Part shown: one piece after another, positions 2,798-32,802 of the stretch
Numbering within the stretch: the stretch's first letter is position 1
How the letters are laid out: every line of letters begins with the position of its first letter
DNA from: Candidatus Heimdallarchaeota archaeon
GTDB taxonomy: Archaea; Asgardarchaeota; Heimdallarchaeia; JABLTI01
Reading direction: 5' to 3'
NCBI GenBank assembly: GCA_019058165.1
Contig: JAHLVZ010000001.1
Location: forward strand, 62,412-95,379
Length of the DNA stretch: 32,968 nucleotides
Program-made: the position numbers and the translations under genes
The notes under the pieces: model-generated
Told to the model about the DNA's origin: nothing
Seen by the model: the letters and a program-made list of their open reading frames with translations, nothing else
Database searches by the model: none

Positions 2798-2818
2798 TTC
2801 TTCAAGAATAACAATTTT

Positions 2819-12070: not shown

Positions 12071-12577
12071 TTGAATAAGAAAGTGGATGCAAAAACACCC
12101 GACCCATGGACATTGCGACAACTCAAGGTTGTTGCAGAATATCAATTCGGTAAGAAATTTGACAAGATTTTAGCTCCAAAAGACATTTTAGTGACATTTT
12201 CAAAAAACACAGACCGAGTGAGAGAGATAATTTTAGGGGAAGAACGTCTTGCAACGATTAGACCAACAGATGGCCTGTTTTCTATAGGTCTTGCTGGTGC
12301 ACAAAGAATTATTGATAATACTAAGATGCCAAAAAGACGTGTTGTTGTTCAATCTGATGTTAGTGAATTTATTGCAGATGGAAGAAATGTTTTTGCAAAA
12401 CATGTTGTAAAAGTTGATCCTGAAATATTGCCAGAAGATGAAGTAGTAGTTGTTTCTGAAGAAGATAAATTATTAGCAGTTGGCAGAGCTAAACTTTCAG
12501 CTGAATACATGCTCGCCTTTCAAAAAGGAACAGCAGTAAAAGTACGTCATGGGATTAAAAAACAAAAGAAATCATGA
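12071..12577 (+). CDS. PUA-domain RNA-binding protein related to the archaeosine TGT C-terminal part
   Basis: 168 aa with a TTG start preceded by TGGAGA about ten bases upstream; a GTG at 12083 is a weaker alternative. N-terminal half: 'LRQLKVVAEYQFGKKFDKIL' and 'TGLFSIGLAGAQRI'-like pattern ('DGLFSIGLAGAQRI'). C-terminal half: a PUA domain at about residues 92-165 with 'RRVVVQSDVSEFIADGRNVFAKHVV', ' VDPEILPEDEVVVVSE' and 'AVGRAKLS'. This architecture is that of the C-terminal RNA-binding part of archaeal tRNA-guanine transglycosylase as found in stand-alone proteins, so a tRNA-modification role is likely. Its stop overlaps the convergent polymerase gene by six bases. Confidence 0.78.
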   Translation: MNKKVDAKTPDPWTLRQLKVVAEYQFGKKFDKILAPKDILVTFSKNTDRVREIILGEERLATIRPTDGLFSIGLAGAQRIIDNTKMPKRRVVVQSDVSEFIADGRNVFAKHVVKVDPEILPEDEVVVVSEEDKLLAVGRAKLSAEYMLAFQKGTAVKVRHGIKKQKKS

Positions 12578-18700: not shown

Positions 18701-18967
18701 GTTGACACAGATAGAGATGGAGTTAGTGATGAACAAGAGTTGGAGGAAGGAACAGATCCTTTGGAACCAAATAGTAATCGTTTGAGAATTACTCTTATCA
18801 CATTTCTTATTGTTTCTAATATAGTACTTGGTTCACTTACTTTGTATTATGGAGTTCCATGGGTGATTTCAAAACGCAAAAAGAATATTGAGCTCTTATG
18901 GATGAAACAGGGTTTGGAAACAAAAGAAAGAGAGTCAAAAAATGAAGAAATGACTAAGAATTCTTAG
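15713..18967 (+). CDS. Giant membrane-anchored surface protein with about 24 thrombospondin-type-3-like Ca2+ repeats
   Basis: 1084 aa. A basic N-terminus and hydrophobic stretch (about residues 14-30) form a signal peptide or anchor. Residues about 40-440 carry spaced 'IHLTW', 'MHVIVDYW' and 'AHLVWWEDF' strands, as in a beta-propeller. From about 447 to 1015 runs an unbroken series of D-x-D-x-D-G-x-x-D-x-x-E motifs ('DTDGDGLNDYVEI', 'DTDLDGLLDGLEV'), I count about 24, each expected to bind Ca2+ as in TSP type-3/dockerin-like loops. A TM helix at about 1024-1050 and a charged cytoplasmic tail end the protein. It should form a long, calcium-stiffened rod on the cell surface. Exact ligand or adhesion target unknown. 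No clear partner gene. Confidence 0.85.
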   Translation: MNYSFQYRKRLKRISFVFLFLVFIQSNALIIQSDLTLVISPADSSFTKQASNTTQMWLPEVDNLYVGFIEWLPEEVLEENTGFIRDLKIAIDGFNNTHVFWVQIIDSNWQLLEKIKFAVNSTWNEHQVLSYLTDSNEIWMFDVATSNDGKIHLTWENNGQIFYRYYVNPTWSSVSFIAYGKKPKIEISISNNPGVIFTQSVNIEYTYYMSHKFAVYSATDDLWEYTEFGLYWEGRDSNHDFTTNIQNGKEYFQGIVCHLRKTWNREESRYYTNFTLDSVSKANDSEILQTITIEDDPLLERPFYWNSEPIILSDKENKMHVIVDYWGLNGQEIFCYQYNGGNWGSRIKLSTTASPDVSVVHKTAAIDPSGGVTSVWTERRFINSSIETGMLQIKSYKPTSGWSETAYLQTNLTYSRSPYLEFDAAGDAHLVWWEDFEGERTLHYRFGYGDGDGDGLSNKDEKIYGTDPDDPDTDDDQMLDGEEIANGFDPLNPDEDTDGMLDGYEFHYGLDPYSDDSLGDLDNDSLLNIEEFLANTYPNDNDSDDDFVSDYEEVVIYLSNPLNTDTDGDTLDDGLEINDLSSDPNSGDSDNDTMSDAYEYLYRDYLDINVNDSALDPDGEGLINLYEYQWNLHPGQVDYEGDGLDDYQEVMVWGTNPVLFDTDKDGYMDGVEVYGIYAPTNPAANATGYVFTNPTLWDTDGDLLSDKTDITINCNPLDNDTDDDLMSDGYEYYMQLDPLNASDATLDLDGDTLTNYEEFLLWTDPKNTDTDGDKLWDNEELVYGSDPTFYDTDGDGLNDYVEIIVLLTNVTNPDTDLDGLLDGLEVHTYYSNPHIQDTDGDTIIDGDEVYIYNTNPTTIHSDDDLLADNLEIIFGTNPNQKDTDIDGMDDFWEWQYGLNGTINDSNLDFDNDNVINIVEYNKGSNPLLAESDDDGIIDYDEIYIYFTHPGMNDTDEDGLSDYEELFVYLTIPYDADTDDDGLWDGYEIEIGTDPLHVDTDRDGVSDEQELEEGTDPLEPNSNRLRITLITFLIVSNIVLGSLTLYYGVPWVISKRKKNIELLWMKQGLETKERESKNEEMTKNS

Positions 18968-19073: not shown

Positions 19074-19466
19074 ATGAGAATAATGGATTACTCACGTATA
19101 GTTAGCAAAATCGCTGTTGATAAAGACAGCATCACATTAGGGAAAATAATTAGAATTGATGAACTACTTGGAAAAACAATCAAGAAGTATAAACCATATG
19201 CAATGATTATTGTGAAGAAACGATTTAAAAAGAAGGGTTTAGTCGTTCCGATTGATGTTGAGAGGATAGTTAAAGTGGGAGGACAATATGTTTGGTTTGA
19301 TATTTTAAAAGAAGAATTCGATGAACAAGTGAAAACAGCTAAGACGATACAAACCGTTCGAGAAACCTATACTGGTGATACTGGTTTTCATCGAGTAAAA
19401 GGCAGTCTGGGTTTTGCTTATGAACCCTATCGTTTATCTCGAAAGGGTAAGGAAAGGAAAAAGTAA
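19074..19466 (+). CDS. PRC-barrel-like protein, paralogue 1
   Basis: 130 aa as listed; alignment with the paralogue at 22763-23128 suggests the start may be the ATG at 19083 (MDYSRIVSK), giving 127 aa. Pattern 'LGKIIRIDELLGKTIKKYKPYAMIIV', 'VVPIDVERIVKVGGQYVWFDI' fits the PRC-barrel fold, a small beta-barrel used in RNA-processing and membrane-associated proteins. A basic tail (RKGKERKK) follows. Neither ATG has a Shine-Dalgarno; AT-rich 'TATTATATTATT' lies immediately upstream, so a leaderless mRNA is possible. Role unknown. Confidence 0.65.
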   Translation: MRIMDYSRIVSKIAVDKDSITLGKIIRIDELLGKTIKKYKPYAMIIVKKRFKKKGLVVPIDVERIVKVGGQYVWFDILKEEFDEQVKTAKTIQTVRETYTGDTGFHRVKGSLGFAYEPYRLSRKGKERKK

Positions 19467-19468
19467 AA

Positions 19469-19501
19469 AATCTACAGCTCCATCAATCCTAAATACTCTG
19501 G
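19469..19501 (+). repeat. 3'-flanking short repeat, copy A (after PRC-barrel gene)
   Basis: 'AATCTACAG' followed by CTCCATCAATCCTAAATACT and CTG, starting three bases after the stop codon. It is similar to 21404-21446 behind the S9 peptidase gene, which has a 12-base insertion between the two parts. It could be a processing or termination element. Confidence 0.5.
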
Positions 19502-19596
19502 TACTAACCAAGAAAAAAGGAAAAGACAAAGAGTTCTTAATTATTTATTCTCTTTTTCAAAAAAATATCTATATCTAAAGAGAATATTACTATATT

Positions 19597-21393
19597 ATGA
19601 AAGCTAAGGATTTGATAGAAAAATTATCAGAAATTCCTTTCATTCGCTTACGCAAACAAAGCAAATTCCATGATACAATTGATTTCTTCTGGAATGCAAC
19701 TGGGAAATCTGAACTTTACACTCTTTTCCCGCAGACAAAAGAGATTCGACAAATGACTTCGGGAGAACTGAATAATATTTGGTGTGTTCGCTCTCCGGAT
19801 GATAACCTCATTTATTATGGGAGCGATGTTGGAGGGAACGAGCAATTCGCTGCTTTCCAGCTAGCTCTCTCAACAAAGGAAATTCTCCAATTAAGCTCTT
19901 CATATGAATTCGACGAGTCTCCATCAGATATCTCTCCTGATGGTAAATTCTTACTCCTTCTTTCGAAACGTTCAGGTCAGACCAATCTCTTCAAAATGGA
20001 TTTAGCAACAAAAAAAGTCACTCAATTAACAGATCAAAAGAATCCTTTCTGGGGATACGCTTTATGGTCTGTCAAAGATTGGATATATTATAGTGCTAAT
20101 GATACAGATAATCGAAGAAATTTGGATATCTGGGCTGTTCGAGCAAATGGTAAAGAAAATCATCTTTTATATCGTTTCTCACCAGACTCCCGTGAATGGG
20201 TTCTTGACCTTTCAAAAGATGGGAATTATTTGGTGGTTGATACTAATGGAAAAAAGACAAGGCAAGCAGGTGTTCTCAATCTCACAAAGAACGAGATTAC
20301 TTGGTTTGGGAATGAGCAATATGATGAAAAACCCAAAGCTATAAGTCGAGACAATTCGAAATTACTAACCATCCGTTTCAAAGGTCTTGAGCGAATTCCA
20401 GTAGTGTATGATGTTCAAACTGGAGAAGAGCATATCCTGAATGTTAAAGGAGTAGTAATTGAAGGGACTTTTTGCCTAAATGATAATTATGTCGTCTATG
20501 CTCGAAGTGATCCGAAAACACCAATGAGTTTAGCGTTGTATAATCTTTTAACTGATGAAGAAGAAATTATTTTAAAACCCGAGCTTGGCATTCCAGATGA
20601 GCAGCTGATAAATGGAACAGATATTACATATCCATCTTTCGATGGATTAAAGGTACCTGCAGTTCTCTATAAACCAAAAATAGAGAGAGGAGAAAAAGCT
20701 CCAGCTTTAATGTTTCATCCTGGAGGACCAGGGGGACAATTAAGTCTATTATTCTTACCAATACTACAAATCCTCTCTCAGTTGGGTTTTGTAATCCTAG
20801 GTCCCAGTCCTCGAGGTTCTACGGGTTTTGGCATGGAATATTTGAAAGCAAATGTAAAAGATCTAGGTGGAGGAGATGCTATGGATTATGTGTATGGTAA
20901 GAATTATCTTGAATCTTTACCATATGTTGATTCCAATCGAATTGGCGTTTTTGGTGGGTCCTATGGAGGATATATGACTTATATCCTCATGACAAAATAT
21001 GCTGAATATAATTGGGCAGCTGGAGCAGCTATGTATGGTATCACTCATTGGAAAACAGTCTACGACGAGTTTCCTTTAGATTACAAACAATTCTTTGAAG
21101 GATTGCTTGGGAAGTATAAAGAAAACAAAGAACTCTGGGAGGATCGAAGCCCGTTAAATCATGTGGACAAAGTAAATGCACCAATCCTCATGATTCAAGG
21201 TGTAAATGACCCACGGTGTACTATCAGTCAATCACGATTATTCAAACAGAAATTGCTTGACTTAGGAAAACAAGAAGGAATAGATTTCGAGTATCACGAA
21301 TTCGGAGATGTTGGGCATGGAGGAAGAGAGGTTAGGAAGGCAATAGAAGAGAATAAACTGCTCGTGGATTTCTTTTTACGTAAACTAAAATAA
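19597..21393 (+). CDS. S9-family prolyl oligopeptidase / acylaminoacyl-peptidase-like enzyme
   Basis: 598 aa. N-terminal about 340 residues form a TolB/WD40-like propeller with repeats such as 'SPSDISPDGKFLLLLSKRSG' and 'WSVKDWIYYSAND'. The C-terminal alpha/beta-hydrolase has 'HPGGPGGQ' (oxyanion region), the nucleophile Ser in 'GVFGGSYGGYMTY', an Asp in 'QGVNDPRC' and the His in 'DVGHGGRE', giving a complete triad. It has no signal peptide, so it is probably cytoplasmic and digests short or N-acylated peptides, although related proteins are often annotated only as alpha/beta hydrolases. No Shine-Dalgarno is visible before the ATG. Confidence 0.9.
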   Translation: MKAKDLIEKLSEIPFIRLRKQSKFHDTIDFFWNATGKSELYTLFPQTKEIRQMTSGELNNIWCVRSPDDNLIYYGSDVGGNEQFAAFQLALSTKEILQLSSSYEFDESPSDISPDGKFLLLLSKRSGQTNLFKMDLATKKVTQLTDQKNPFWGYALWSVKDWIYYSANDTDNRRNLDIWAVRANGKENHLLYRFSPDSREWVLDLSKDGNYLVVDTNGKKTRQAGVLNLTKNEITWFGNEQYDEKPKAISRDNSKLLTIRFKGLERIPVVYDVQTGEEHILNVKGVVIEGTFCLNDNYVVYARSDPKTPMSLALYNLLTDEEEIILKPELGIPDEQLINGTDITYPSFDGLKVPAVLYKPKIERGEKAPALMFHPGGPGGQLSLLFLPILQILSQLGFVILGPSPRGSTGFGMEYLKANVKDLGGGDAMDYVYGKNYLESLPYVDSNRIGVFGGSYGGYMTYILMTKYAEYNWAAGAAMYGITHWKTVYDEFPLDYKQFFEGLLGKYKENKELWEDRSPLNHVDKVNAPILMIQGVNDPRCTISQSRLFKQKLLDLGKQEGIDFEYHEFGDVGHGGREVRKAIEENKLLVDFFLRKLK

Positions 21394-21403
21394 CAACTAA
21401 ATG

Positions 21404-21446
21404 AATCTACAGCAATCTAAGTCTCCGTCAATCCTAAAAACTCCGT
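21404..21446 (+). repeat. 3'-flanking short repeat, copy B (after S9 peptidase gene)
   Basis: 'AATCTACAGC', then a 12-base insertion and CTCCGTCAATCCTAAAAACT, beginning ten bases after the S9 stop codon. It corresponds to copy A at 19469-19501; the shared 23-base part differs at three positions. Confidence 0.5.
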
Positions 21447-21512
21447 AGACATAGGATAAAAAAAATAATTTTAAAACGTGAGGATAGAAGAAAGCAATGA
21501 AATCTATATTAC

Positions 21513-22106
21513 CTATTTTTTAAGATGATTCTTCTTCTGAGAGTATTTATACACAGTAGCTACAATTATACTTGTTAGAAATACCAAACCAAAACCAATA
21601 GATGGTAATGCCTGCCTGATATTTAGCACATTTGTTGTAAAAGTAATTGTGGCATTTGAATCAACAGTAGGAACCGTACAATAATACCAAATAGCCAGAG
21701 CAAGTGGTCTAGTAGAAGTGCTAAAAGTATGAGTATTGAAAAACGATTCGCCTGGATCAAGTACAAATGCTTCTTCTAAGGTAGGAGTCCAACTATATAC
21801 ATAATCAGTTTCTGTTTCAGGTATTAATGAAAACAAAACACTTGAGTTGGAATTTACAGCTACTGAAAAACTAAATGAAATTACACCTTTATTAAAAGCA
21901 TATGATGTGTTTAGGACTACACCTTGATTCCAAGATATAACAACAGTTTCTTCATAATAAGAAGAAACCGTTGGAGAATGTACTATTCCTAAATTAATAT
22001 TATTCAATGAAAAAACAAGAAGAATCACAAGAAATAAAATACTTTTCCTGGAATACATCCAATTTCGAGTAAATTGATTCTTCTTAATCATTTGGGAACC
22101 CTTCAT
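21513..22106 (-). CDS. Signal-anchored extracytoplasmic beta protein with C-terminal TM, module A gene 2
   Basis: 197 aa as listed; comparison with the paralogue at 26323-26880 suggests the start may be the ATG for MIKKNQF, five codons later. N-terminal hydrophobic segment (about 23-43), then about 125 residues rich in beta-strand and Asn-linked-glycosylation-like N-x-S/T sites, then a TM helix and a basic tail. Shared with the paralogue: 'YEETV', 'WNQGVVLNTS', 'NSNSSVLF', 'LDPGESF' and 'NATITFTTNVLN'. Family not recognised. It lies 42 bp behind its partner gene, so the pair is probably an operon. Confidence 0.65.
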   Translation of the reverse strand: MKGSQMIKKNQFTRNWMYSRKSILFLVILLVFSLNNINLGIVHSPTVSSYYEETVVISWNQGVVLNTSYAFNKGVISFSFSVAVNSNSSVLFSLIPETETDYVYSWTPTLEEAFVLDPGESFFNTHTFSTSTRPLALAIWYYCTVPTVDSNATITFTTNVLNIRQALPSIGFGLVFLTSIIVATVYKYSQKKNHLKK

Positions 22107-22148
22107 TCTTAAAGGATCATTGAATGCTTTTGAGTTAATATGGAATTA

Positions 22149-22658
22149 TTATGTCGATTCGAAATAGAAAGTGAGCCATTGATTACCATAGCGATAATCG
22201 ATGAGAACAGACAAGCCATAATTCATCTCTGCGAGTATATCTTTTTGGAGCATGAATGTTCTTATGATATGAGCACCCCAAGCATACTCCTGCTTAACCA
22301 TCATGGATTGATAGCGTACTTCTCTATCAAGAGAGTGCAAATGTATTTTCTCAATATTAACAATTCCATCTACTGTTTCCATAATCAAGGTAAGCTGGTC
22401 TTCCTCTAGATTATCAGTGTAAGTCGTAATGGTAAGTAATTCGATTGTTCCAGGGTACTGTGCTCTACGAGCAAGTGGAATATAAACAGAGGGAACAGTA
22501 ATACTAACTAAAATAAATACAGCGAGAATACTAATGGTTAGTTTCTTTCGAAAACCTTTCCCTTTAGGTTTCAGCTTTTCTGATCGATCTATTGCTTTTC
22601 GCTTTCTATCACTTAATACTTCAGAACCACAAACTTGACAATACTGGTTTCTCGTCAA
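22149..22658 (-). CDS. CxxC-containing single-TM protein, module A gene 1
   Basis: About 169 aa. The ORF track starts at a GTG (22667), but alignment with the ATG-started paralogue (MTRKKHCHVCGSE) makes the TTG at 22658 the start (MTRNQYCQVCGSE), with GGGTGGG five bases upstream. The N-terminal cytoplasmic part has a single CxxC followed by 'GSE' and a lysine-rich stretch, then a TM at about 40-60 and a roughly 105-residue extracytoplasmic beta domain ending 'GNQWLTFYFEST'. One CxxC per chain is half a zinc site, so zinc might be shared between two chains (inference). Function unknown; it precedes its partner in a probable operon. Confidence 0.65.
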   Translation of the reverse strand: MTRNQYCQVCGSEVLSDRKRKAIDRSEKLKPKGKGFRKKLTISILAVFILVSITVPSVYIPLARRAQYPGTIELLTITTYTDNLEEDQLTLIMETVDGIVNIEKIHLHSLDREVRYQSMMVKQEYAWGAHIIRTFMLQKDILAEMNYGLSVLIDYRYGNQWLTFYFEST

Positions 22659-22662
22659 AATA

Positions 22663-22669
22663 CCCACCC
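22663..22669 (-). promoter_or_regulatory. Shine-Dalgarno in shared leader, module A gene 1
   Basis: On the minus strand GGGTGGG sits just before the TTG start, preceded by TATATTGGTACAA. The same leader layout is found before the genes at 26880, 27491 and 26187. Confidence 0.6.
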
Positions 22670-22762
22670 TTGTACCAATATACTAGCTCTTTTCTACTAT
22701 AAAACTAGCTAAATTAAAAGAAGGATTCCATAAAAAAGTGGATAAAACAAAGAATTCACTAT

Positions 22763-23128
22763 TTATTTCTTCTTCTTACGAGGTTTTGGTCTATAGTCAG
22801 ATCCTCCTCCTGCGGTAACCCAAGAAGTTGGCACATGATCGTCAAATGTTTCACGTTCTTTTCTTAAAACCTCTATTCGTTTTATCTCTACCTCAAAATC
22901 TTCCTTGGAAATATCAAACAACACATGACTTTCTTGCTCCTTAATCACTTTTTCAAGATCAATTGGGACAAAGATTTTTCTTCGTAAAAACCGATTCACT
23001 TGAACAATAGCATATGGTTTATATTTTTTTATCGTTTTTCCTATCAAGTCTTCTATTCGAATTATTTTACCAAGTTTTTCTCCATTCTTACACATTGCAT
23101 TTTTTGAAATGAAATTTATATAATTCAA
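22763..23128 (-). CDS. PRC-barrel-like protein, paralogue 2
   Basis: About 121 aa from the TTG at 23128 (MNYINFISKNAMCKNG). The GTG at 23137 in the ORF track overlaps the strong Shine-Dalgarno GGAGGGGTG, which has a five-base spacer to this TTG, and the TTG also aligns with the start of paralogue 1. Shared segments: 'LGKIIRIEDLIGKTIKKYKPYAI' and 'FVPIDLEKVI'. The tail is basic (RPKPRKKKK). It stands about 3.3 kb from paralogue 1 on the opposite strand, next to duplicated module A. Role unknown. Confidence 0.65.
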   Translation of the reverse strand: MNYINFISKNAMCKNGEKLGKIIRIEDLIGKTIKKYKPYAIVQVNRFLRRKIFVPIDLEKVIKEQESHVLFDISKEDFEVEIKRIEVLRKERETFDDHVPTSWVTAGGGSDYRPKPRKKKK

Positions 23129-23203
23129 ATTATACACCCCTCCTTTTTTAGTGACAAATATCCTGAAATAATATTCAATAAGGACAATTAATAATAATCA
23201 TCT

Positions 23204-24391
23204 CTATCCACTTTTCTTCTTCCACAGAATTAGAATCGAAGCTCCAACCACTACTACTGGTAATCCAATACCAAGTCCTAAACCCAGATTCAGTCCTACA
23301 GAATTCTCAAAGTATGTGTAGGTTCTGATGGTATCACTAATGGATAAGAACAAGTGGGTTTCTGTTACTGTTAGTCGATCAAATATTTGGTCTCCGGTGT
23401 CTATCCCAGCAATCCTTTTCACTTTGTGAGGGTTGCTTATGTCGAAAATACTGAGGTTTCTTCCACCAGCGAATAATCGATCGCCCACAATATCTATGTC
23501 ATGAATAATTCCTTCAACAGCTAAGTTCTTTTCAGGAAAGTCGTAATCCCAACAAATTATTGGATTAAAAGGATCTGCGCAGTCATAGACTTGAATCCCA
23601 GATTCCAAAAAGGTATTTATGACATAGTTCCCGTACACCCCACTACTAACAGAGGTGTTTTTTGTACTTTGAATTTCTCCATATAATAAAGGATGAACTG
23701 GATCCGCTATATTATAGATTTTTACACCATTCCCCACCAAGTACAAGAAGTCATTAATGACATGCATTCCCCCACCAGACGACGGAACAAACGCCACTTG
23801 CTCAGGTGACGACTGATTACTGCAATTAAAGATTAGCAAATCGTCTGAGCTAACATAGGCATAATTTTTGTATCCAATTATCTGTCTTGGACTCTCAACC
23901 ATATTTGGTATACTTAACTTAGAAGAATTTCCTAATAGAACAGGATTTGTTAAGTCAGTCATATTTACAAGTGCTACTAAAAATCTTTCCACACACAAAA
24001 CCGACCTCTCTACGAGTAAATAAGCAATGTTCTCACTAATATTGAAATCTTTAATCTACCAAGTAGAATTTAAGACATACCTTCCAACAACAACAGGACT
24101 CTCAGGTTGGTGAACATCTATAATCTGTACTATGTTCCTATATCCCGGATCTTGAGAGTTATTCGCTACCCAGAGATAAAGATACCCGTCCTGTTCACAA
24201 AGAACATAACCACTCTCCCATGCTTCTTGTAGGAAAGGAGTATCTACTTCGTCTATGAGGTAAAATCCCTCGCCCATAATAGTGGCATTATTCATTGAAA
24301 CGATAAGTAAGATAGAACATATAAAAAGCAACTTCAGCAGTGAAGAGACTGAATCCCTTCTAACTTTGCTTCTATTTTCATTTCTTTTCAT
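23204..24391 (-). pseudogene. LVIVD-repeat beta-propeller surface protein interrupted by one in-frame amber codon
   Basis: Two ORF-track entries (24433-24056 and 23998-23204) are the same reading frame: exactly 19 sense codons lie between the TAG at 24056-24058 and the second listed start, with no other stop. The joined protein is about 395 codons. It starts at the ATG at 24391 (MKRNENRSK), which has GGTGAT-GGGAG upstream, has a signal-like segment at about 17-32, LVIVD-type blades ('QIIDVHQPESPVVVG', 'IYNIADPVHPLLYG', 'IFDISNPHKVKRI') and a C-terminal TM with a KKKSG tail. The sense codons after TAG still read like a blade ('KDFNISENIAYLLVE'). Nonsense mutation, sequencing error or readthrough cannot be told apart here. 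Confidence 0.8.
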
Positions 24392-24393
24392 AA

Positions 24394-24404
24394 CTCCCAT
24401 CACC
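24394..24404 (-). promoter_or_regulatory. Strong Shine-Dalgarno of the interrupted LVIVD gene
   Basis: GGTGATGGGAG on the minus strand lies just before the ATG at 24391 and decides that start against three further upstream methionines in the ORF track. A TATA-like CCTATATAG lies about 45 bases upstream of the start. Confidence 0.6.
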
Positions 24405-24467
24405 ATTAACAAGCTAAGTAATATTATTAACACTATATAGGGTGTTTACCTTATTCTATTTTTCTAA

Positions 24468-24492
24468 TACTTTACAACCAAGACAAAGAATT
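24468..24492 (+). repeat. 25-bp interspersed direct repeat, copy 1
   Basis: TA + CTTTACAACCAAGACAAAG + AATT. Between the SBBP gene and the interrupted LVIVD gene, upstream of the latter. Its left flank is homologous to that of copy 6. Confidence 0.9.
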
Positions 24493-24603
24493 TTTCAGCA
24501 AAAGAGATCTCATTAACCGCAACAAGTTATTTGTGTATGTTAGATGAGTCTTTACCTAATTTCAAACAGGATTTTCCCCATTTTAAAACTAAAAAAAGTA
24601 AAG

Positions 24604-26187
24604 CTACTTCTGTTTCTTATATACAATGAGTGCGATTACAGGCATGGTTGCGAAGAGCATGACGGCTATGAAGACTAAAAATACAGTAACAGTAAGAGGT
24701 CGGGTAATTGGTATAGGTGAGTCAACAAATTTCGTAACAAAAGCATCACTCGAACCACCTAAGATATAACCATAAGCATTCTCAGTGGGAAAATCATTTG
24801 AACGGGTATCACCTGTGACAAAACAGCTCCCATCACTAGCAAAAGCAATCCCCCATCCATTATCAGAATCACTACCTCCCAGAAACGTGCTCCACAAAAG
24901 GGAGCCGCTGGAATTGAATCTACCAACAAAAGCATCCGACGTACCACCATATGCACTATCATATGCATTCAACATTGGGAAATCATCTGAACGGGTATCT
25001 CCTACCACCAAGCAACTATCATCACCACGAACAGCAATATCATGAACACGATCCGAATCACTTCCACCAAGAAAAGTGCTCCAGAGTAAAGAACCTCTCT
25101 TAGAAAATTTTGTAATGAAAACATCATCATCACCATTAATCGTCTCATCATAGGCATTTTTAGTAGGGAAATCACTTGAATAAGTAAAACCAGCAATATA
25201 ACAATAACCATTAAAAGCAGTAGCAATACCTATTCCTTTATCTAAATTACTACCTCCGAGAAAAGTACTCCACTGAATGATTCCATTCGCAGAAAATTTA
25301 GTAACAAAAGCATCAGTACCTTCAATGGTAGAATCATAAGCATTTAATGTAGGAAAATCAGTTGAAGTAGTATAGCCTGTAATATAACAGCTGTTATCAC
25401 TTGCAACAATAATACCCTTAGCTTCGTCCCATGAAGCTCCTCCGAGGTAGGTGCTCCAGAGGAGCGAACCACTTGCTGAGAACTTGGAAACAAAAGCATC
25501 ACCTTTTAAACCACCATTATAAGAGTTATCATGTGCATTTTTAGTTGGGAAATCACTCGATTTTGTTGAACCTGTTATATAACAGCTACCATCATTAGCT
25601 ACAGCAACACCTCTGCAATATTCGTAATCATTCCCTCCCAAATAAGTACTCCAGAGTAAAGAACCACTTGAAGAAAATTTTGTGATAAAAGCATCGTGAA
25701 AACCACTAAAAGTGCTATTATAAGCGTTCAAGGTTGGAAAATCATTTGATTCAGTATCTCCTATCACATAACAACTGCCATCACTACCAACAGCAATAGC
25801 ATAACAAATATCCCAAATACTTCCTCCTAGGAATGTACTCCATAAAAGCTCTCCATTTGCAGAGAATTTTGCTACAAAAGCATCAGTATTATTAACAAAA
25901 TTGTAAGAAGCATTCAAAATAGGAAAATCAGCTGATCGAGTAGCACCAGTTACATAACAAGAACCATCTTCAGTAACGGCAATATCATTCCCACGATCCG
26001 TCTCATTTCCGCCAAGGTAGGTGCTAAAATTCAATTTGGGATAGGTTGCAGGTAAAGCTTCAGGATAAGCAAGTGTTATAGTTTGTTCAGTAAAAGGAAG
26101 CACTTGCTGGGTTGCAGAAAGAAACACCACACTTATGAGGAGGACAATGCTCAAACGATTGATTACTAATCGTAAAAATTTTCCCAA
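24604..26187 (-). CDS. Membrane-anchored SBBP-repeat beta-propeller protein, exactly seven repeats
   Basis: 527 aa, TTG start with GAGGGTT seven bases upstream. Signal peptide at about 12-30. Seven repeats of about 60-65 residues follow the pattern 'GSCYVTGxTxSxDFPTxNAY ... DAFVTKFSxxGSLLWSTFLGGS', the SBBP (seven-bladed beta-propeller) repeat; seven units match one closed propeller. Each has a conserved Cys in 'SCY'. A C-terminal TM (about 495-522) and the tail KKQK anchor it outward. The DNA repeats are also visible. Probably a surface-exposed binding or adhesion module; ligand unknown. Repeat copies 1 and 2 lie on either side of this gene. Confidence 0.85.
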   Translation of the reverse strand: MGKFLRLVINRLSIVLLISVVFLSATQQVLPFTEQTITLAYPEALPATYPKLNFSTYLGGNETDRGNDIAVTEDGSCYVTGATRSADFPILNASYNFVNNTDAFVAKFSANGELLWSTFLGGSIWDICYAIAVGSDGSCYVIGDTESNDFPTLNAYNSTFSGFHDAFITKFSSSGSLLWSTYLGGNDYEYCRGVAVANDGSCYITGSTKSSDFPTKNAHDNSYNGGLKGDAFVSKFSASGSLLWSTYLGGASWDEAKGIIVASDNSCYITGYTTSTDFPTLNAYDSTIEGTDAFVTKFSANGIIQWSTFLGGSNLDKGIGIATAFNGYCYIAGFTYSSDFPTKNAYDETINGDDDVFITKFSKRGSLLWSTFLGGSDSDRVHDIAVRGDDSCLVVGDTRSDDFPMLNAYDSAYGGTSDAFVGRFNSSGSLLWSTFLGGSDSDNGWGIAFASDGSCFVTGDTRSNDFPTENAYGYILGGSSDAFVTKFVDSPIPITRPLTVTVFLVFIAVMLFATMPVIALIVYKKQK

Positions 26188-26193
26188 AAAACT

Positions 26194-26200
26194 AACCCTC
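26194..26200 (-). promoter_or_regulatory. Shine-Dalgarno in shared leader, SBBP gene
   Basis: Minus-strand TATATTACTGAGGGTTAG precedes the TTG start; the GAGGGTT part is the ribosome binding site. The block resembles the leaders of 22658, 26880 and 27491. Confidence 0.5.
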
Positions 26201-26296
26201 AGTAATATACTCTTAACTTGTAATAATTAAATACTTTTGTAAAAAATAACCAGAAATTGTTAGTCATGACCTTTGAAGAATTACTTGAGTGAATTT

Positions 26297-26321
26297 TACT
26301 TTACAACCAAGACAAAGAATT
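26297..26321 (+). repeat. 25-bp interspersed direct repeat, copy 2
   Basis: Perfect copy. It lies one base from the stop codon of the 26323-26880 gene and upstream of the SBBP gene. Confidence 0.9.
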
Positions 26322-26322
26322 T

Positions 26323-26880
26323 TCATCCTTTTCGCTTTCGTTTAAACCTAATTGCAATTATTACACAAGAAAGAAAGACTAACCCATAGCCAATTGAAGA
26401 TAATTTATTCCCAAAATTCAGTACTTTAGTTGTAAAAGTAATCGTAGCATTTGAACCCTCTAAAGGAATTGTACAATAATATTTGATGACCATTCCAACA
26501 CCACAATCAGAAAGCTTCAAAGAGTGATTATTGGAATAGGATTCTCCAGGATTAAGCTGTATTTCATTTTCAATTACCGGAGTCCAGTTAACGCTATAAC
26601 ATGATCCTGTAGCTGGGACATGCGTGAAGAGTACACTTGAATTTGAGTCTAATGAAACAGAGAAACTAAGGAAAACTTCTCCATTATTATGTATCATGGA
26701 AGTGTTTACAGCTACTCCTTGATTCCAATAAATTTCAATCGTTTCTTCATAAAGAGTGGAATCAATAGGTGATTGCACGATTCTTGCGTTTATAATAACT
26801 AATGAAAAGAAAATAACAAGTACTAAAAACGAAATGCTTCTTCTAGAAAGAAACATAGGATAATACAGATTTCTTTTCAA
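26323..26880 (-). CDS. Signal-anchored extracytoplasmic beta protein with C-terminal TM, module B gene 2
   Basis: 185 aa, paralogue of 21513-22106. TTG start, with GGGGTAGG five bases upstream. Hydrophobic N-terminal segment (about 14-32), a beta-rich ectodomain with 'YEETIEIYWNQGVAVNTS', 'DSNSSVLF', 'LNPGESYSNNHS' and 'SNATITFTTKVLN', then a TM and basic tail KRKRKG. Here it has its own TATATTGTATTGGGG leader and 107 bp of spacer holding repeat copy 3, whereas in module A the spacer is only 42 bp and has neither. Function unknown. Confidence 0.65.
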   Translation of the reverse strand: MKRNLYYPMFLSRRSISFLVLVIFFSLVIINARIVQSPIDSTLYEETIEIYWNQGVAVNTSMIHNNGEVFLSFSVSLDSNSSVLFTHVPATGSCYSVNWTPVIENEIQLNPGESYSNNHSLKLSDCGVGMVIKYYCTIPLEGSNATITFTTKVLNFGNKLSSIGYGLVFLSCVIIAIRFKRKRKG

Positions 26881-26885
26881 GTAAA

Positions 26886-26893
26886 CCTACCCC
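26886..26893 (-). promoter_or_regulatory. Shine-Dalgarno in shared leader, module B gene 2
   Basis: Minus-strand TATATTGTATTGGGGTAGG precedes TTTACTTG. It is very close to the leader of module B gene 1 (27491) although the two encoded proteins are unrelated. Confidence 0.55.
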
Positions 26894-26964
26894 AATACAA
26901 TATAATATAACTAATTCATAGTTAAATGTATTCAAACTAGAAATGAAAAATCCATGGAAAATAA

Positions 26965-26989
26965 TACTTTACAACCAAGACAAAGAACT
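26965..26989 (+). repeat. 25-bp interspersed direct repeat, copy 3
   Basis: First 23 bases perfect, last two differ (CT instead of TT). It abuts and slightly overlaps the stop codon (26988-26990) of module B gene 1. Confidence 0.9.
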
Positions 26990-27491
26990 AGAACAGATAT
27001 GTAATCCATTGGTCTTTATACTTGAATTCAATATGCAAAACAATCCCATCATTCAGCGAAGGTTCTTCTTTGTGGATAAAAAATGTATGCACGAAATTCC
27101 TGCGTGGTCCGTTTTCCATATCATATTCAATTGTATCATAATGGATTTGTCTGTCCACTGAAAACAGATGAATGTGTTTTATGCTTACTCGTCCCAGCCT
27201 AACTTCCGTAAATATTTCCAATTTATTATAATCTTGATCATACTGGTAGATGTTCACGCTTTTTATGTAGAGTTCTCCTTGAAATTGTGCTCTCGAAGCA
27301 AAGGGTATAGTAATCGAAGGTACTGCAATGAGCACAAAAACAGTTAACGCAAATACTCCAGTTAATCTTTTGCTGCGGAAGATATTCTTGAAAAACTGCT
27401 TCTTATCCTTACTATCTTTGACTTCTCTATTCTTCCGTCTTCCACTTAATTGCTCAGAACCACACACGTGACAATGTTTTTTTCTCGTCAT
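26988..27491 (-). CDS. CxxC-containing single-TM protein, module B gene 1
   Basis: 167 aa, paralogue of 22149-22658. ATG start with GGGGTGGG five bases upstream. 'HCHVCGSEQLSGRRK' gives one CxxC in the cytoplasmic N-terminus; a TM at about 42-62 ends in 'SITIPFASRAQFQG', matching 'SVYIPLARRAQYPG' in module A; the ectodomain includes 'IKHIHLFSVDRQIHYD' and ends 'YKDQWITYLF'. Followed on the same strand by module B gene 2, but with repeat copy 3 between them. Function unknown. Confidence 0.65.
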   Translation of the reverse strand: MTRKKHCHVCGSEQLSGRRKNREVKDSKDKKQFFKNIFRSKRLTGVFALTVFVLIAVPSITIPFASRAQFQGELYIKSVNIYQYDQDYNKLEIFTEVRLGRVSIKHIHLFSVDRQIHYDTIEYDMENGPRRNFVHTFFIHKEEPSLNDGIVLHIEFKYKDQWITYLF

Positions 27492-27496
27492 GTAAG

Positions 27497-27504
27497 CCCA
27501 CCCC
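27497..27504 (-). promoter_or_regulatory. Shine-Dalgarno in shared leader, module B gene 1
   Basis: Minus-strand ATATATTGTACTGGGGTGGG precedes CTTACATG. Upstream 'AGTTTTATTATTAGGAAAAG' resembles 'AGTTTTATAGTAGAAAAGAG' of module A, so the whole promoter region was duplicated with the gene; the TTTTATTATT part is a candidate TATA box. Confidence 0.6.
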
Positions 27505-27599
27505 AGTACAATATATTATAGCTTTTCCTAATAATAAAACTAATCATAATAATATGAGGAAATGTCAAAGAAATTTGCATTGACTAATAAATTACAACC

Positions 27600-27624
27600 T
27601 ACTTTACAATCAAGACAAAGAATT
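27600..27624 (+). repeat. 25-bp interspersed direct repeat, copy 4
   Basis: One mismatch (ACAATC for ACAACC). It is between divergent genes. Its right flank, through the start of the 135-aa gene, is homologous to that of copy 6. Confidence 0.9.
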
Positions 27625-27702
27625 TTTCACCAGTACGTTCTTCTTTTTTGCTAAAAAATTAAATTCAAAGAAGTACGTTGTGTATTTGAAAATTAATGTG
27701 GG

Positions 27703-28110
27703 TTGTTTTCTTTGTCAGTAAAATGTCTAAATTGTGGGGAAATGATTGAATCGGATAGTGACCAATGCAATAGTTGTGGATTTAAAATTGATAAAAGAGA
27801 ATCCAACGAACAAGTAGCTAAACATCTGCGAATTTTTTCTCTTATCTCATTAATATTTGGTTGTGTAGGAATGGGTTTCTTTTGGTGGTTCCCATTGCTT
27901 CCCTTAAATAATAAAATTAGTCTTGGTAATTGGGTAGCTTTATCTTTGTTTTGTCTCTTTATGATTTCTGCTATTCTTGGAATCATTTTTGGTGGTCTCA
28001 GCGTAAGAAAAGGAAAGAGATGGTTCTCGATAATCGGACTACTGTTTAATGCGTTTACGTTATTTACTCTAATATGGAGTTTAGTGATTTTCATCTTGAA
28101 TTTCTTCTAA
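27703..28110 (+). CDS. Zinc-ribbon protein with three TM segments
   Basis: 135 aa, TTG start. The near-identical copy at 32881 has ATG at exactly this position, which supports the start, although a TTG three codons later (27712) is possible in both. 'KCLNCGEMI ... QCNSCGFKI' is a complete CxxC/CxxC zinc ribbon, followed by TM helices at about 44-70, 76-100 and 107-133. Zinc-ribbon plus multi-TM proteins of this sort are common in archaea and have no settled function. Bounded by repeat copies 4 and 5. Confidence 0.7.
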   Translation: MFSLSVKCLNCGEMIESDSDQCNSCGFKIDKRESNEQVAKHLRIFSLISLIFGCVGMGFFWWFPLLPLNNKISLGNWVALSLFCLFMISAILGIIFGGLSVRKGKRWFSIIGLLFNAFTLFTLIWSLVIFILNFF

Positions 28111-28142
28111 ATAATTTTTACAATTTAGACTTTACAGATTAA

Positions 28143-28150
28143 TTTTTTTT
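28143..28150 (+). terminator. T-run, candidate terminator of the zinc-ribbon gene
   Basis: Eight consecutive T residues about 33 bases after the stop codon; archaeal terminators are T-rich tracts without obligatory hairpin. Confidence 0.4.
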
Positions 28151-28256
28151 ACAATCATCAAATCCTTCTCCAAACATTAGTAACAATGCTAAAAGCACAT
28201 TAACAAATTCTCTAAACTTTTCATTTCGCAATTTAATACTTTATATGATGATTAAA

Positions 28257-28281
28257 TACTTTACAACCAAGACAAAGAATT
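28257..28281 (+). repeat. 25-bp interspersed direct repeat, copy 5
   Basis: Perfect copy in the spacer between the zinc-ribbon gene and the large LVIVD gene. Confidence 0.9.
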
Positions 28282-28465
28282 CTAAAACAAATCACCAAAC
28301 AAATAACTCAACTTCTTTATATAATGGATCTTTTCAAGCCCGAAAAGTAAACCACTCTAAGAGATTTCATGAAGACATCATCTAACCACTAATTTCTCCT
28401 GTTTTGTGGATAGGAAACTCCTTGATATATTCTCTTAGTAATTTTTTAATTGTTAATATCATATT

Positions 28466-30829
28466 ATGAACGTAAACTTTATACATCGTAACAGCTTAAC
28501 ATTATCCATGAAGAGGGAAAGAAGCGCACTAATTTTTTCAGAAATTTTATTACTACTAATTAGTTTCTACTTTTCGTCAAATTTTTATTTACAAAATAAT
28601 CCAATAATGGTTGCTGCTTCCCATGAAGATATCACTAAAGATCAGTTATATGCTGATGATTTTCCTACAAGTTATAATTCGCAAAATCTAATGTCAAACA
28701 AACAATTGACCAAGATTTGCGATTTTGATTTTAGCTATGGTGCTATGGAAAAAATCTTTGTAAAAGAAAATTATGTCTATTCAATTTTAGAAAATGGTGG
28801 TTTGCTAATTTTTGACACGTCAATTTCTTCTAAACCAACATTGATTGGTAGCTTTAATGAATTTCAAATAAATACTGGGGGTTTTGTTGGAGATAATTTA
28901 ATTTATCTTGGAATTTTTGGTGGGGGCTCCGCCATAATTAATGTGTCTGATCCTTATAATCCTGTCAAAATTTCAACTTTGAAAGATGTCAATATTGTAA
29001 ACAAATTTTATGTGTCTAATGACTTATTTTTTACTCTTGATGGTTTTAACAGAATATTAGTCTATAATATTAGCAATCCATTAAGACCTGTTCTTTTGTC
29101 GTTAATAGATTATTATACACAAGACTTTACACGTGTGAACGACTTTTCTGTAAAGGGAGATTTGCTTTACATTCTTTTTATTACTGGTCTTGTTATAGTC
29201 GATATTTCAGATCCGGAAAACCCTATTGAATTAGTTAAACATGAGTCCGTTAAAGGATTATCTTTTGATTTTAAAGATGATTATGTTTTGACAACATCAG
29301 TTTTTAGAAATAATTCAATATCGTTTTGTCAATTGAATATTCATGATTTTACTGATCCTTTTACGATCAAAAACATTTCAAGTCTTATTTTAAATACTAC
29401 AGTTTATAATAAAAAAGTTCAAGTTATAAACAATTCAGCATTTATTTATGATGCTGAATTCATAATAGTTAACGTGTCTGAAATTAGCTCTCCTGAAGTT
29501 ATTGGTTTTTATTCCCAAATCTCTTTGCCTTCACAGAACAGGATTCTTTATTTGGATATTAATGAGTGTTTTATTGATTATGAAAAGGAAATCATTTATT
29601 GTGCTGATTTTGGAAATGGTTTGTTAATATTCGATTTTATTAATTATCCCTCTCTATTTTTGAAAGGTTTCTTTGATTCGGGTGGAAAAATTACTGATGT
29701 TTTTGTTAAAGATAAGTTTGTTTATATCAGTGATGTTCGTGAGAGTTATTACAATCCCACCTCGAAATTTAGCATTTATAAAACAGAACATAATTTTAGC
29801 TCCATAACCCTCTTAGGTGAGTATTATCCGAATGGAAGAATTCTCGATTTTATTATAAATGAGCAGTACGTTTATTTGTCTGTTTTAAATTCTGGCATTG
29901 AAATAATTAATATTTCTAATCCAATGGAACCTCAGCTTGTAAATACCTATAACAATAGCTTGAAATATCTAAATGAATTAGTCATTGATTCACAAAACAA
30001 CATACTCTATACAACTGTTTACGATAAAGGACTTGTAATTTTAAATATTTCAAATCCAAAAGAACCACAACTGATTACTGAATACATGCAGATGAATGAC
30101 TGGAATTACAAATATTCCGAGTTTTGTTTAGCAGATGAGCTTCTTATTGTCAAAATTGCTGGAAATGATTATGGTACGGGTTTTTCCATCCTTAATATAT
30201 CTAATCCAAGTCAACCAGCAGTTCTCTGGAGTGGGTATATTAGTCGTTATGTTACATCTCTAAGTGTTTTCGATGATTTGCTCATTGTAGGTAAACATTA
30301 CAATATTGTTGAAATTTATGATATCTCCGATCCAATTTCTCCTGAACTATTATCAAGTGTAAGTAATAACTGGTTTTTTTCTGAAAATGAAATTGTAACA
30401 AAGGAATCTTCAGTTTTTGTTGCAAGAGGTGAAAATGGTTTATTAATTGTTGATATTGAACATCCAAAAATGGCAAGATTAGTAACAACAATGAAGGATC
30501 ATTATAGTGGTGAAAGCTTTGATGTTTTTGTTCAAGGGGATTATGTTTTTTTGGCTGATGGTTGGGATGGTCTTGAGATTTTTAAACTCGATTCATACAA
30601 GCTCAGATTTGTTGTGTTTTTTGTACCAATAGGTGGAATCATTATTGTTTCTTTCATAATTTTCACTAATATCAGGAAAACAAAAAAGTATAAATTAACT
30701 ATGAAAAAAAATCCTACTCGATGCTATAAAAACTTTAATACATTCTCTATGCTTTTCTTTTTTCCTCTCTTCTTGTTCCTTCTTTTCCTTAAGCGTTGTT
30801 TCTCCTGTTTGAGAAGAGTTGTTTTTTGA
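28466..30829 (+). CDS. Large LVIVD-repeat beta-propeller surface protein with two C-terminal hydrophobic segments
   Basis: 787 aa. Signal/anchor at about 22-40. Many LVIVD-type blades ('GLVIVDISDPENPIEL', 'GIEIINISNPMEPQLV', 'GLVILNISNPKEPQLI', 'IVEIYDISDPISPELL', 'GLLIVDIEHP') occupy about 85-705, enough for more than one propeller. A TM at about 713-732 is followed by a basic stretch and a second, very Phe/Leu-rich hydrophobic segment near the end. It is strikingly T-rich on the coding strand compared with the A-rich left-hand genes. No Shine-Dalgarno is seen before the ATG at 28466 or the internal ATG at 28508, so the start is uncertain. Likely displayed outside the cell; ligand unknown. 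Confidence 0.8.
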   Translation: MNVNFIHRNSLTLSMKRERSALIFSEILLLLISFYFSSNFYLQNNPIMVAASHEDITKDQLYADDFPTSYNSQNLMSNKQLTKICDFDFSYGAMEKIFVKENYVYSILENGGLLIFDTSISSKPTLIGSFNEFQINTGGFVGDNLIYLGIFGGGSAIINVSDPYNPVKISTLKDVNIVNKFYVSNDLFFTLDGFNRILVYNISNPLRPVLLSLIDYYTQDFTRVNDFSVKGDLLYILFITGLVIVDISDPENPIELVKHESVKGLSFDFKDDYVLTTSVFRNNSISFCQLNIHDFTDPFTIKNISSLILNTTVYNKKVQVINNSAFIYDAEFIIVNVSEISSPEVIGFYSQISLPSQNRILYLDINECFIDYEKEIIYCADFGNGLLIFDFINYPSLFLKGFFDSGGKITDVFVKDKFVYISDVRESYYNPTSKFSIYKTEHNFSSITLLGEYYPNGRILDFIINEQYVYLSVLNSGIEIINISNPMEPQLVNTYNNSLKYLNELVIDSQNNILYTTVYDKGLVILNISNPKEPQLITEYMQMNDWNYKYSEFCLADELLIVKIAGNDYGTGFSILNISNPSQPAVLWSGYISRYVTSLSVFDDLLIVGKHYNIVEIYDISDPISPELLSSVSNNWFFSENEIVTKESSVFVARGENGLLIVDIEHPKMARLVTTMKDHYSGESFDVFVQGDYVFLADGWDGLEIFKLDSYKLRFVVFFVPIGGIIIVSFIIFTNIRKTKKYKLTMKKNPTRCYKNFNTFSMLFFFPLFLFLLFLKRCFSCLRRVVF

Positions 30830-30896
30830 CTCTTTTTCGGCTGTTTTTCAGGTTCTCTTCTTAAGCGGTTTTTGGTGTTTTAAGCAGAGTTTTTTC
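30830..30896 (+). terminator. T-tract cluster between convergent genes
   Basis: Four runs of five to six T residues follow the stop of the LVIVD gene in a 99-bp convergent spacer. They suit archaeal termination for the plus-strand gene. Confidence 0.45.
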
Positions 30897-30928
30897 GATT
30901 CATTTCTTCTTACACATTGCTTCTCAGT

Positions 30929-32083
30929 TTAGATATCCACTGGGTTTTCTAATGGGTACAAATCCTCATTATCGCTTCCCTCGATTGCATATGTTGCTCC
31001 TAGAAACCAGACTAATTCCGACCAATAATTGCCTTGACTTAGAGAAGCATTGTACCAAACATTTGGTCCATAATCACTTGCTGAGCTACTGTCATCATTT
31101 ACCTGTGATCTGTTTTGTAGGATTCCTGTATAGTAATTATTGATGAAATTGTTAGCATAAAATACCGTGTTAGTACTATCGTCTATTTCAATCGCCAATC
31201 CTGTATTATTGTAAAACACATTTTTGCTTACGCTTGAATTGATTATGTATTCAATATTCATTCCTTTTCCATTAAAACTGAAATAATTCCTCTTAATTGT
31301 GAGATTTAATCCTCTTCCTCCATATCCTGATCGTCCATTATAACTACAATTATTACCCAGAATTGTGGAATTCTCCACCCATGATACAAACATTCCTCTT
31401 TCACTATTATTGTTACACGTGTTGTTTGCGATTACTATTGAATGACTCACCATATATTTACCGTAAAGATACTGATCTTCATGTATGAAGAAAATGCCGT
31501 ACTCATTATTGTTACAGGTATTATTGTCTACCATCAAGTTGTCGTTCAGTCCTAAAAGATGCAAACCATATCTCATATTATTACAGTTATTGTTAGAAAT
31601 TAATGAGTCATAACATCCTGTAGTTTTAATTCCTACTGAGCCATAGCAGATATTATTCCTCACGATTGTACCTGGGCAATAAATCAATTCTATTGATGGT
31701 CTACCCTGTCCTGTAAATATATTATTCTCTATTCTTGCGGTCCCGTATGACACATTCACTAAAACAATTGGATATCCAGCTTCAATGTTACAATTCCTTA
31801 TGATGAAATGACTACTTGTTTGATTTATTTTGATCCCAAAAAGTCTCTTTGTGGAAAAAATAAAATTTTCAATTATGTATGGATCTTCTTTTGTTCCGTT
31901 CCCAGGAAAATGATACCGATTCGCAAAATCTTCATCCCGATAAATGATGATTTCCCCCACAAAATAAACTCGATTCTTCATATGCCATGTTAGTAACCAA
32001 GCACTCACGCTGATTACTAATACTAATTGCACTATTAAGATTGCAACTATAACCCTTATACCTCTCTTACTCTTCCCAAACAT
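30929..32083 (-). CDS. NosD-like right-handed parallel beta-helix protein, N-terminally anchored
   Basis: 384 aa from the ATG at 32083 (MFGKSKRG). The ORF track extends 32 residues into the upstream gene, but GGGGTGA lies eight bases before this ATG and the upstream stop is just two bases away. TM at about 8-31, then 'GNGTKEDPYIIENF' and a series of PbH1 rungs ('NNNCNNMRYGLHLLGLNDN', 'NNTCNNNEYGIFFI', 'NYFSFNGKGMNI', 'NNFINNYYTGI'), ending 'GNYWSELVW ... LYPLENPVDI', the usual end of archaeal NosD/periplasmic copper-binding-type helices. Likely an extracellular glycan-binding or -processing protein. Probably co-transcribed with the upstream membrane protein. Confidence 0.82.
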   Translation of the reverse strand: MFGKSKRGIRVIVAILIVQLVLVISVSAWLLTWHMKNRVYFVGEIIIYRDEDFANRYHFPGNGTKEDPYIIENFIFSTKRLFGIKINQTSSHFIIRNCNIEAGYPIVLVNVSYGTARIENNIFTGQGRPSIELIYCPGTIVRNNICYGSVGIKTTGCYDSLISNNNCNNMRYGLHLLGLNDNLMVDNNTCNNNEYGIFFIHEDQYLYGKYMVSHSIVIANNTCNNNSERGMFVSWVENSTILGNNCSYNGRSGYGGRGLNLTIKRNYFSFNGKGMNIEYIINSSVSKNVFYNNTGLAIEIDDSTNTVFYANNFINNYYTGILQNRSQVNDDSSSASDYGPNVWYNASLSQGNYWSELVWFLGATYAIEGSDNEDLYPLENPVDI

Positions 32084-32085
32084 CT

Positions 32086-32538
32086 TCAAGTCACCCCTTT
32101 TGTTTTCCCTTCTGCTTGAATCATAAGTAATATTTTTTTTCTTCTTATTAAAAACCAAATTAGGTTTCCAATAAAGCAAGCACCTGTAAAAATCGGCCCA
32201 CCTAAGAAAATAACTTGAAACCCTATGTATAAACCATAGTCAAGAATAACTCCAGGTATATTTGAACTGATTCTACTCACATCATCAAAAATAATGAAAA
32301 TAAGAATAATTAAAATGAAATAAATCATGTAAGATGCACCAAATACGAATACTGTTAATGGTATTCTTAGTAATTTATCATGTTTTATCGTTTGCATCTT
32401 TTGAGATAGAAAAACCAATATTAATGACACTAAAGGAATGAGTATTACTAATCCACATAGAAAGACTACGAATAGAATATCTACCCAAATTGGCAGCTCA
32501 AGAAACATCACATTGTTCGGAGCAAGTCTAAATGTCAC
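32086..32538 (-). CDS. Small membrane protein with three to four TM segments, unknown function
   Basis: 150 aa, GTG start with GGAGAGTAGG about nine bases upstream. Hydrophobic segments at about 18-43, 54-80 and 95-135, with a short basic tail. Its stop is two bases before the start of the beta-helix gene, so the pair forms an operon and the two products may work together at the membrane. No family recognised. Confidence 0.65.
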   Translation of the reverse strand: MTFRLAPNNVMFLELPIWVDILFVVFLCGLVILIPLVSLILVFLSQKMQTIKHDKLLRIPLTVFVFGASYMIYFILIILIFIIFDDVSRISSNIPGVILDYGLYIGFQVIFLGGPIFTGACFIGNLIWFLIRRKKILLMIQAEGKTKGVT

Positions 32539-32678
32539 AGGAATAATCCTACTCTCCTCTTAATTTTAGGTATTTAATTATTCATTTCCGAGTATTTAAT
32601 TCTTTTATCAAATCAATTAGTTTGTTACCTTTTTGTTCTTGTTTTTCCCGGAACACTTTTTCCACTATATTCTTCTTT

Positions 32679-32760
32679 TTAGTTATGAAGTTCTTTTCGT
32701 TTCAAAACTCCCAACACCACAAATAAACTAATCAATTTTAGTACTATATATGGTGTTTAC
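32679..32760 (-). pseudogene. Remnant of an LVIVD-gene 5' end (promoter, Shine-Dalgarno, about eight codons)
   Basis: On the minus strand 'GGTGTTGGGAGTTTTGAAACG' corresponds to 'GGTGATGGGAGTTATGAAAAG' at 24391, with TTG in place of ATG and a TAA after eight codons (MKRKELHN). The TATA-like CCATATATAG upstream also matches. The rest of the gene is absent. Confidence 0.5.
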
Positions 32761-32777
32761 TTTATTCTATATTTCTA

Positions 32778-32802
32778 CACTTTACAACCAAGACAAAGAA
32801 TT
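32778..32802 (+). repeat. 25-bp interspersed direct repeat, copy 6
   Basis: One difference (first base C for T). Left flank like copy 1, right flank like copy 4. Confidence 0.9.

Follow-up and report, generated by a model that had tools for sequence, protein, structure and literature searches.

Site and gene content of the island

The window, by which we mean the whole stretch of 32,968 nucleotides that was analysed, belongs to a draft genome of a Heimdall-type Asgard archaeon (G000) and ends where its contig C196 (95,379 bp) ends. Its conserved left chromosomal anchor is the gene of a Y-family polymerase (PolIV; 12572-13729, minus strand; Pfam IMS, E=1.7e-46), and further to the right lies the site-less outer part of an island (19074-24433) that encodes a 130-aa protein, an S9 peptidase, a 197-aa membrane protein, a 172-aa CxxC protein, a 124-aa protein and a broken LVIVD gene. 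Several of these genes have homologues that flank intact sites, or sit between them, in two sister genomes (G002 contig C165 and G005 contig C214), and in this outer part (19-24.4 kb) the sites were thus either lost or never there.

From 24468 onwards, the window holds six copies of a short site, TACTTTACAACCAAGACAAAGAATT, all on the plus strand and all intergenic, as the preliminary description had it when it reported six copies of a repeat in a single orientation, always between genes and with at most two mismatches. Within the 19-bp core, five of the six copies have no mismatch and the copy at 27602 has one, and the chance expectation for the window is 0.02 copies at up to three mismatches. 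The gene contents that had been proposed for the intervals (SBBP propeller, LVIVD, NosD/beta-helix and a weak zinc ribbon) likewise agree with our annotation, and the genes face both ways while the repeat does not.

Site 1 (24468-24492, exact match) is the left-most intact site of the array and precedes an SBBP beta-propeller gene (24604-26187, minus strand; Pfam PF06739, E=2.7e-28) whose product has an N-terminal signal/TM segment and a C-terminal TM segment; a related gene stands ahead of the first site of C152rc. Site 2 (26297-26321) is followed by the gene of a 185-aa protein with N- and C-terminal TM segments (26323-26880, minus strand), which is homologous to 21513-22106 and matches no Pfam family, and site 3 (26965-26989) by that of a 167-aa CxxC protein with one TM segment (26988-27491, minus strand), which is 88.6% identical in nucleotides to G002 C165:4882-5536. 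Sites 2 and 3 lie at the 3' ends of these minus-strand genes (stops 26323 and 26988), which bears out the earlier remark that both copies directly adjoin stop codons; the site stands upstream of plus-strand genes and downstream of minus-strand genes. Site 4 (27600-27624), with one C-to-T change, precedes the gene of a 135-aa zinc-ribbon membrane protein with three TM segments (27703-28110, plus strand), whose Pfam match to Zn_Ribbon_1 is weak and below the cut-off. At the 3' end of this gene, a probable decayed site (28106-28145, plus strand) aligns with the intact site C202:116, which comes after the same zinc-ribbon gene there; the site profile does not score it as a site. Between site 5 (28257-28281) and site 6 (32778-32802) lie three genes, namely that of a 787-aa LVIVD-repeat surface protein (28466-30829, plus strand; Pfam PF08309, E=3.9e-35), that of a NosD/beta-helix protein with one TM segment (30929-32179, minus strand; Pfam PF13229 and PF05048) and that of a 150-aa protein with three TM segments (32086-32538, minus strand). 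A second zinc-ribbon cassette follows site 6, and as the window ends at the contig end, the array continues beyond it.

Across the array genomes, the intervals between sites measure from about 0.5 kb (in G002) to 5 kb and as a rule hold one to three genes on either strand, with five ORFs in one 4.5-kb interval of G002. Most of the products have several TM segments, an N-terminal signal or TM segment, or a C-terminal TM segment that is followed by a basic tail; among them are SBBP and LVIVD propellers, a NosD beta-helix protein, a zinc-ribbon membrane protein, a solute-binding protein and an ABC/FtsX exporter.

Pattern searches, on which all genome-wide site statistics are based, found 16 good copies in the 3.36-Mb metagenome-assembled genome (MAG), six on C196, four each on C101 and C202 and two close to the end of C152, with one orientation for all copies within each contig. 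The genome-wide search for the 25-mer that had been proposed earlier thus placed it at the gene boundaries of the array contigs; the remaining six matches have three mismatches each and are isolated, compared with nine for a reversed control pattern. A profile leaves almost no middle ground, in that the sites score 32-41 bits, the next best place in the window 15.7 bits and shuffled windows up to 15.4 bits. Aligning 25 copies in related DNA from four MAG records delimits the conserved block sharply to 24-25 bp, (T)ACTTTACAACCAAGACAAAGAAT(T), with the information falling abruptly to background at both edges. The most invariant part is the centre, ACCAAGACAAA, and the ends read CTTT/AAAG. The block has little palindromic structure, the best palindrome covering 5 of 11 positions, so that it is not obvious how a symmetric recombinase dimer would bind, which counts against cassette exchange. 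No Rfam family matched on the four array contigs searched.

The ten copies outside the window, on three contigs or contig ends, look like the remainder of the same array. A zinc-ribbon gene of one kind lies at the ends of C196 and C202, and a solute-binding-protein gene at those of C202 and C101; C196, C202 and C101 are therefore probably consecutive, in an order that we infer from these ends.

Chromosomal locus and homology at the site

In four relatives (G006, G008, G007 and G001), the PolIV and Lhr-Era genes lie 0.5-2 kb apart in a compact locus, and these genomes have no sites. In the window genome, PolIV lies on C196 to the left of the array and Lhr-Era lies on C152 past its two sites, and since the two genes flank the array here and are neighbours in the four relatives, the array occupies a single conserved interval of the chromosome. 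In G005, the left side of the island has its counterpart in the order PolIV, methyltransferase, large protein, 129-aa protein and S9 peptidase. In its PolIV/Lhr-Era interval, G004 shares some of the gene families, but neither the site nor any other repeat common to the intergenic regions was found there.

Among the 59 genomes of the class that were searched, several copies of the site occur only in G000, G002 and G005, the latter two being sister species of the same genus (public records: 'Asgard group archaeon' and 'Candidatus Heimdallarchaeota archaeon') with four copies each. A single copy in a genome of another family, on contig G040:C45, was rejected, as the E1-like genes of this contig and of G005 are 99% identical and the contig is probably a misbinned one of this genus. 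Viral contigs gave 33 single matches, none with two sites, and thus no sign of viral arrays, and outside Asgard MAGs the contigs of GTDB genomes gave only isolated single matches in unrelated bacteria, which we take as chance.

The 80-bp left and right flanks were compared across all site pairs, with a threshold set at 99.9% of shuffled comparisons. Homology was one-sided in 22 of the 23 site pairs with a homologous flank, pairs that are not independent of each other, given that one family of four left flanks supplies six of them. About five groups of left flanks and five of right flanks recur in different combinations. One left flank is joined to four mutually unrelated right flanks (site 1, site 6, C101:8133 and C202:1454), site 2 has its left but not its right flank in common with C152rc:1559, and site 4 shares its right but not its left flank with site 6, the zinc-ribbon cassettes at these two sites being 91.6% alike from the site onward and unrelated before it. 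We gave up a formal four-gamete argument, as the similarity that unites two of the right-flank groups is short and due to basic tails or A-rich stretches.

The same switch is seen between species, in the kind of comparison at the repeat that had been proposed earlier for strains: the homology breakpoints in relatives coincide with the site. Site 5 and its LVIVD gene are 92% identical over 2.5 kb to G005 C214:774-3289, starting exactly at the first base of the site, and the DNA upstream of site 5 is unrelated to that preceding C214:774. In addition, the cassette at C152rc 1559-3013 recurs in G005 between other neighbours, the next cassette there being the counterpart of the one at C202:2200 in G000 and not of the one after C152rc 3013. 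The site copies are near-invariant, while homologous cassettes have diverged to 74-92% nucleotide identity. Contig C214 of G005 itself begins at base 1 of a site, which would be expected of an assembly graph if several left neighbours existed. That homology switches at the site speaks for an exchange of cassettes through site-specific recombination, which we consider probable on the strength of sequence comparison.

Known systems and rival explanations

The array shares with integrons and CALINs, including the archaeal ones described by Ghaly et al. 2022 (PMC9668308), the organisation into many small cassettes with one site each and one orientation of the sites, an order that varies among relatives and an integrase that is often off-contig. 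In contrast to these, the site here is 24 bp long, nearly invariant and devoid of attC core boxes or hairpin, the genes lie on either strand and encode mostly surface proteins, and no IntI was found among the genome matches or at either assembled end of the array, which is gapped and lies in a MAG that is 86% complete. None of 23 sites has an ordered pair of the core boxes RYYYAAC and GTTRRRY within 150 bp, and the mean folding z over these sites is 0.1 on the plus and 0.05 on the minus strand. A canonical integron with overlooked attC sites is therefore hardly probable at all, even though the same source records Asgard integrons, most of them arrays that lack an integrase; besides the missing core boxes and fold, none of the three PF00589 matches of the genome is of the IntI class. 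The site thus differs from that of bacterial integrons and is apparently undescribed, and within the reach of a limited literature search, the passages on Asgard mobile elements and archaeal integrons mention no such array.

In the R64 shufflon and in the vsa and vsp loci of Mycoplasma, a tyrosine recombinase rearranges surface-type genes at short repeats and inverts segments between inverted sites; here, all sites are direct, which predicts excision and insertion rather than inversion. The Xer/dif modules of Acinetobacter (pdif; PMC6449649) are likewise bounded by short sites (28 bp, compared with 24 bp here), and the candidate enzyme in our case also belongs to the Xer family. However, dif sites consist of two 11-bp inverted arms around a variable 6-bp centre with an inner palindrome (PMC6449649), whereas the present block of 24-25 bp has its most invariant part in the centre, a best palindrome of 5 of 11 and direct copies only, and a dif module was rejected on these grounds. 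A CRISPR array was dismissed as well, in line with the preliminary description, since the intervals of about 0.5-5 kb hold genes instead of short regular spacers and no Cas1 was found in the array genomes.

That no Cas1 was found in the three array genomes also bears on an insertion that duplicates its target site and is carried out by a Cas1-like or transposase-type integrase, by which each new module would copy the 24-bp target as spacers copy the CRISPR repeat. The same outcome would be expected, namely direct repeats of constant length between unrelated inserts, but related cassettes reappear next to different neighbours at either end, for which reciprocal exchange is the better fit, and we regard this mechanism as very improbable. 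More weight, while still unlikely, is due to the alternative that the repeat is a shared regulatory element of surface genes, as the preliminary description had suggested, or a terminator or an element of chromosome organisation, kept by selection while the genes were moved by duplication and ordinary recombination. The extreme conservation of the sites and their strictly intergenic position among mostly surface-type genes would suit such an element, as would the presence of related gene families of the same island without sites in G000 and G004. It fits poorly, however, with a fixed orientation despite genes on both strands and with homology that stops at the site from either side, unlike that of an element travelling with its gene; and eleven similar LVIVD-rich regions elsewhere in the genus, searched in the same way, lack the site and have no intergenic repeat.

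Finally, the shuffling might be an artefact in which short-read assemblers joined the wrong flanks at real sites. All genomes are fragmented MAGs with contig ends in or near the array, as in the case of C214 of G005, so that our evidence for exchange comes from drafts that are broken at the array and in which a 24-bp repeat can cause mis-joins. However, the reads normally used are far longer than 24 bp, mis-joining cannot account for a conserved site between all modules, and three separate MAGs keep the same anatomy, with a site at each cassette boundary in whatever order and sites confined to such boundaries, an observation that does not depend on any single junction. We thus judge an assembly artefact to be distinctly unlikely. 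Taken together, the breakpoints of homology in relatives fall at the site as they would in a general site-specific cassette array, and we favour an integron-like cassette array with exchange by site-specific recombination as the probable reading, which the confinement of the site to gene boundaries and the differing order in relatives also support; the preliminary description had put forward a cassette array with a short recombination site as the first of two readings.

Candidate enzyme and proposed mechanism of exchange

According to this model, each cassette would combine one asymmetric site of about 24 bp with one to three genes, whose products are mostly secreted or anchored in the membrane, and cassettes would be linked head to tail through the site at a single chromosomal locus between PolIV and Lhr-Era. 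The model draws on the sites themselves, their single orientation and restriction to boundaries, the homology switch, the different order of neighbours in the sister species and the lack of sites in relatives with the compact locus. A site-specific recombinase is presumed to act at the site, and since every site is a direct repeat, it would release cassettes, probably as one-site circles, and re-insert them at other sites, such that the set and order of surface genes would change without inversion. Neither circles of cassettes nor rearrangements within one strain were observed, which counts against this reading.

A recombinase near the array, for which the preliminary description had proposed to look, was not found on any assembled array contig. 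The window genome has three matches to tyrosine recombinases (PF00589), none of them near the array and all with their highest scores against XerA/XerC/XerD models and with scores that fall far short of the integron cut-off; serine recombinases were not found in the three array genomes, all of which are incomplete and have gaps in the array. Just one tyrosine recombinase was found that the three genomes have in common, an unlinked XerA-like protein of 352-360 aa that is 88-90% identical among them and whose best relative among solved structures is 4a8e, an entry described as a probable XerC-like tyrosine recombinase. Its gene also occurs in G004 and G008, which have no array, beside the same small winged-helix-type gene, and no site match above chance level was found near the XerA-like genes (best 14.1 bits). 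A tyrosine recombinase may act at the site, and we tentatively name the XerA-like protein as a candidate for this role; it is equally possible that the enzyme is encoded in the unassembled gaps or acts in trans from a mobile element.

Cassette arrays are a main known route by which bacteria stockpile and shuffle genes, and those reported from archaea rest on bacterial-type integrons. We see about an even chance that the present array represents an archaeal cassette system unrelated to integrons, which would use its own short asymmetric site to diversify the surface of Asgard archaea by excision and insertion at one locus. If true, this would constitute a second way to exchange genes as modules, directed at surface proteins, in the group that stands closest to eukaryotes, and the 24-bp site together with the candidate XerA-like enzyme offers a ready assay.

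Motifs near the sites and in the outer island

A second repeated motif, approximately GGAAATGACAAAGAG, is found 25-50 bp upstream of several sites, with occurrences at window 27560-27600 and at the loci L047:5800-5838, L048:3590-3618 and L052:980-1016. In the island's outer part, which has no intact sites, intergenic half-site-like stretches consisting of GACAAAGARTTCTT and its variants are present at window 18942-18965, 19520-19540 and 22745-22760, and these may possibly represent decayed sites. One of these stretches lies at the position where the sister genome G002 carries an intact site.

Contig C45, TnpB and recombinase genes

One site is also present on contig C45 (L226) of G040, a MAG of another family, in which this contig is probably misbinned. 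An E1-like locus abuts the array-like part there, a place that holds an SPFH-type gene in relatives. To the left of the island, a single gene for TnpB, an RNA-guided endonuclease family, is located at window 10799-11992, and a 397-aa ORF on contig C212 (L223:8123-9316) looks by eye like a second copy. A truncated tyrosine recombinase on contig C37 of G000 (L197:182-2890), whose N-terminal part is absent or replaced, adjoins the XerA-like recombinase gene and appears to be left over from an integrated element.

LVIVD genes

Adjoining site 1, an LVIVD gene of a 400-aa family seems to be divided into two ORFs of 264 and 125 aa (window 23204-24433) and is probably a pseudogene; unbroken relatives are found on C202 and C101, two other array contigs of the same genome. 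LVIVD-repeat proteins are strongly expanded across the genus, with 23-72 matches per genome in one search.
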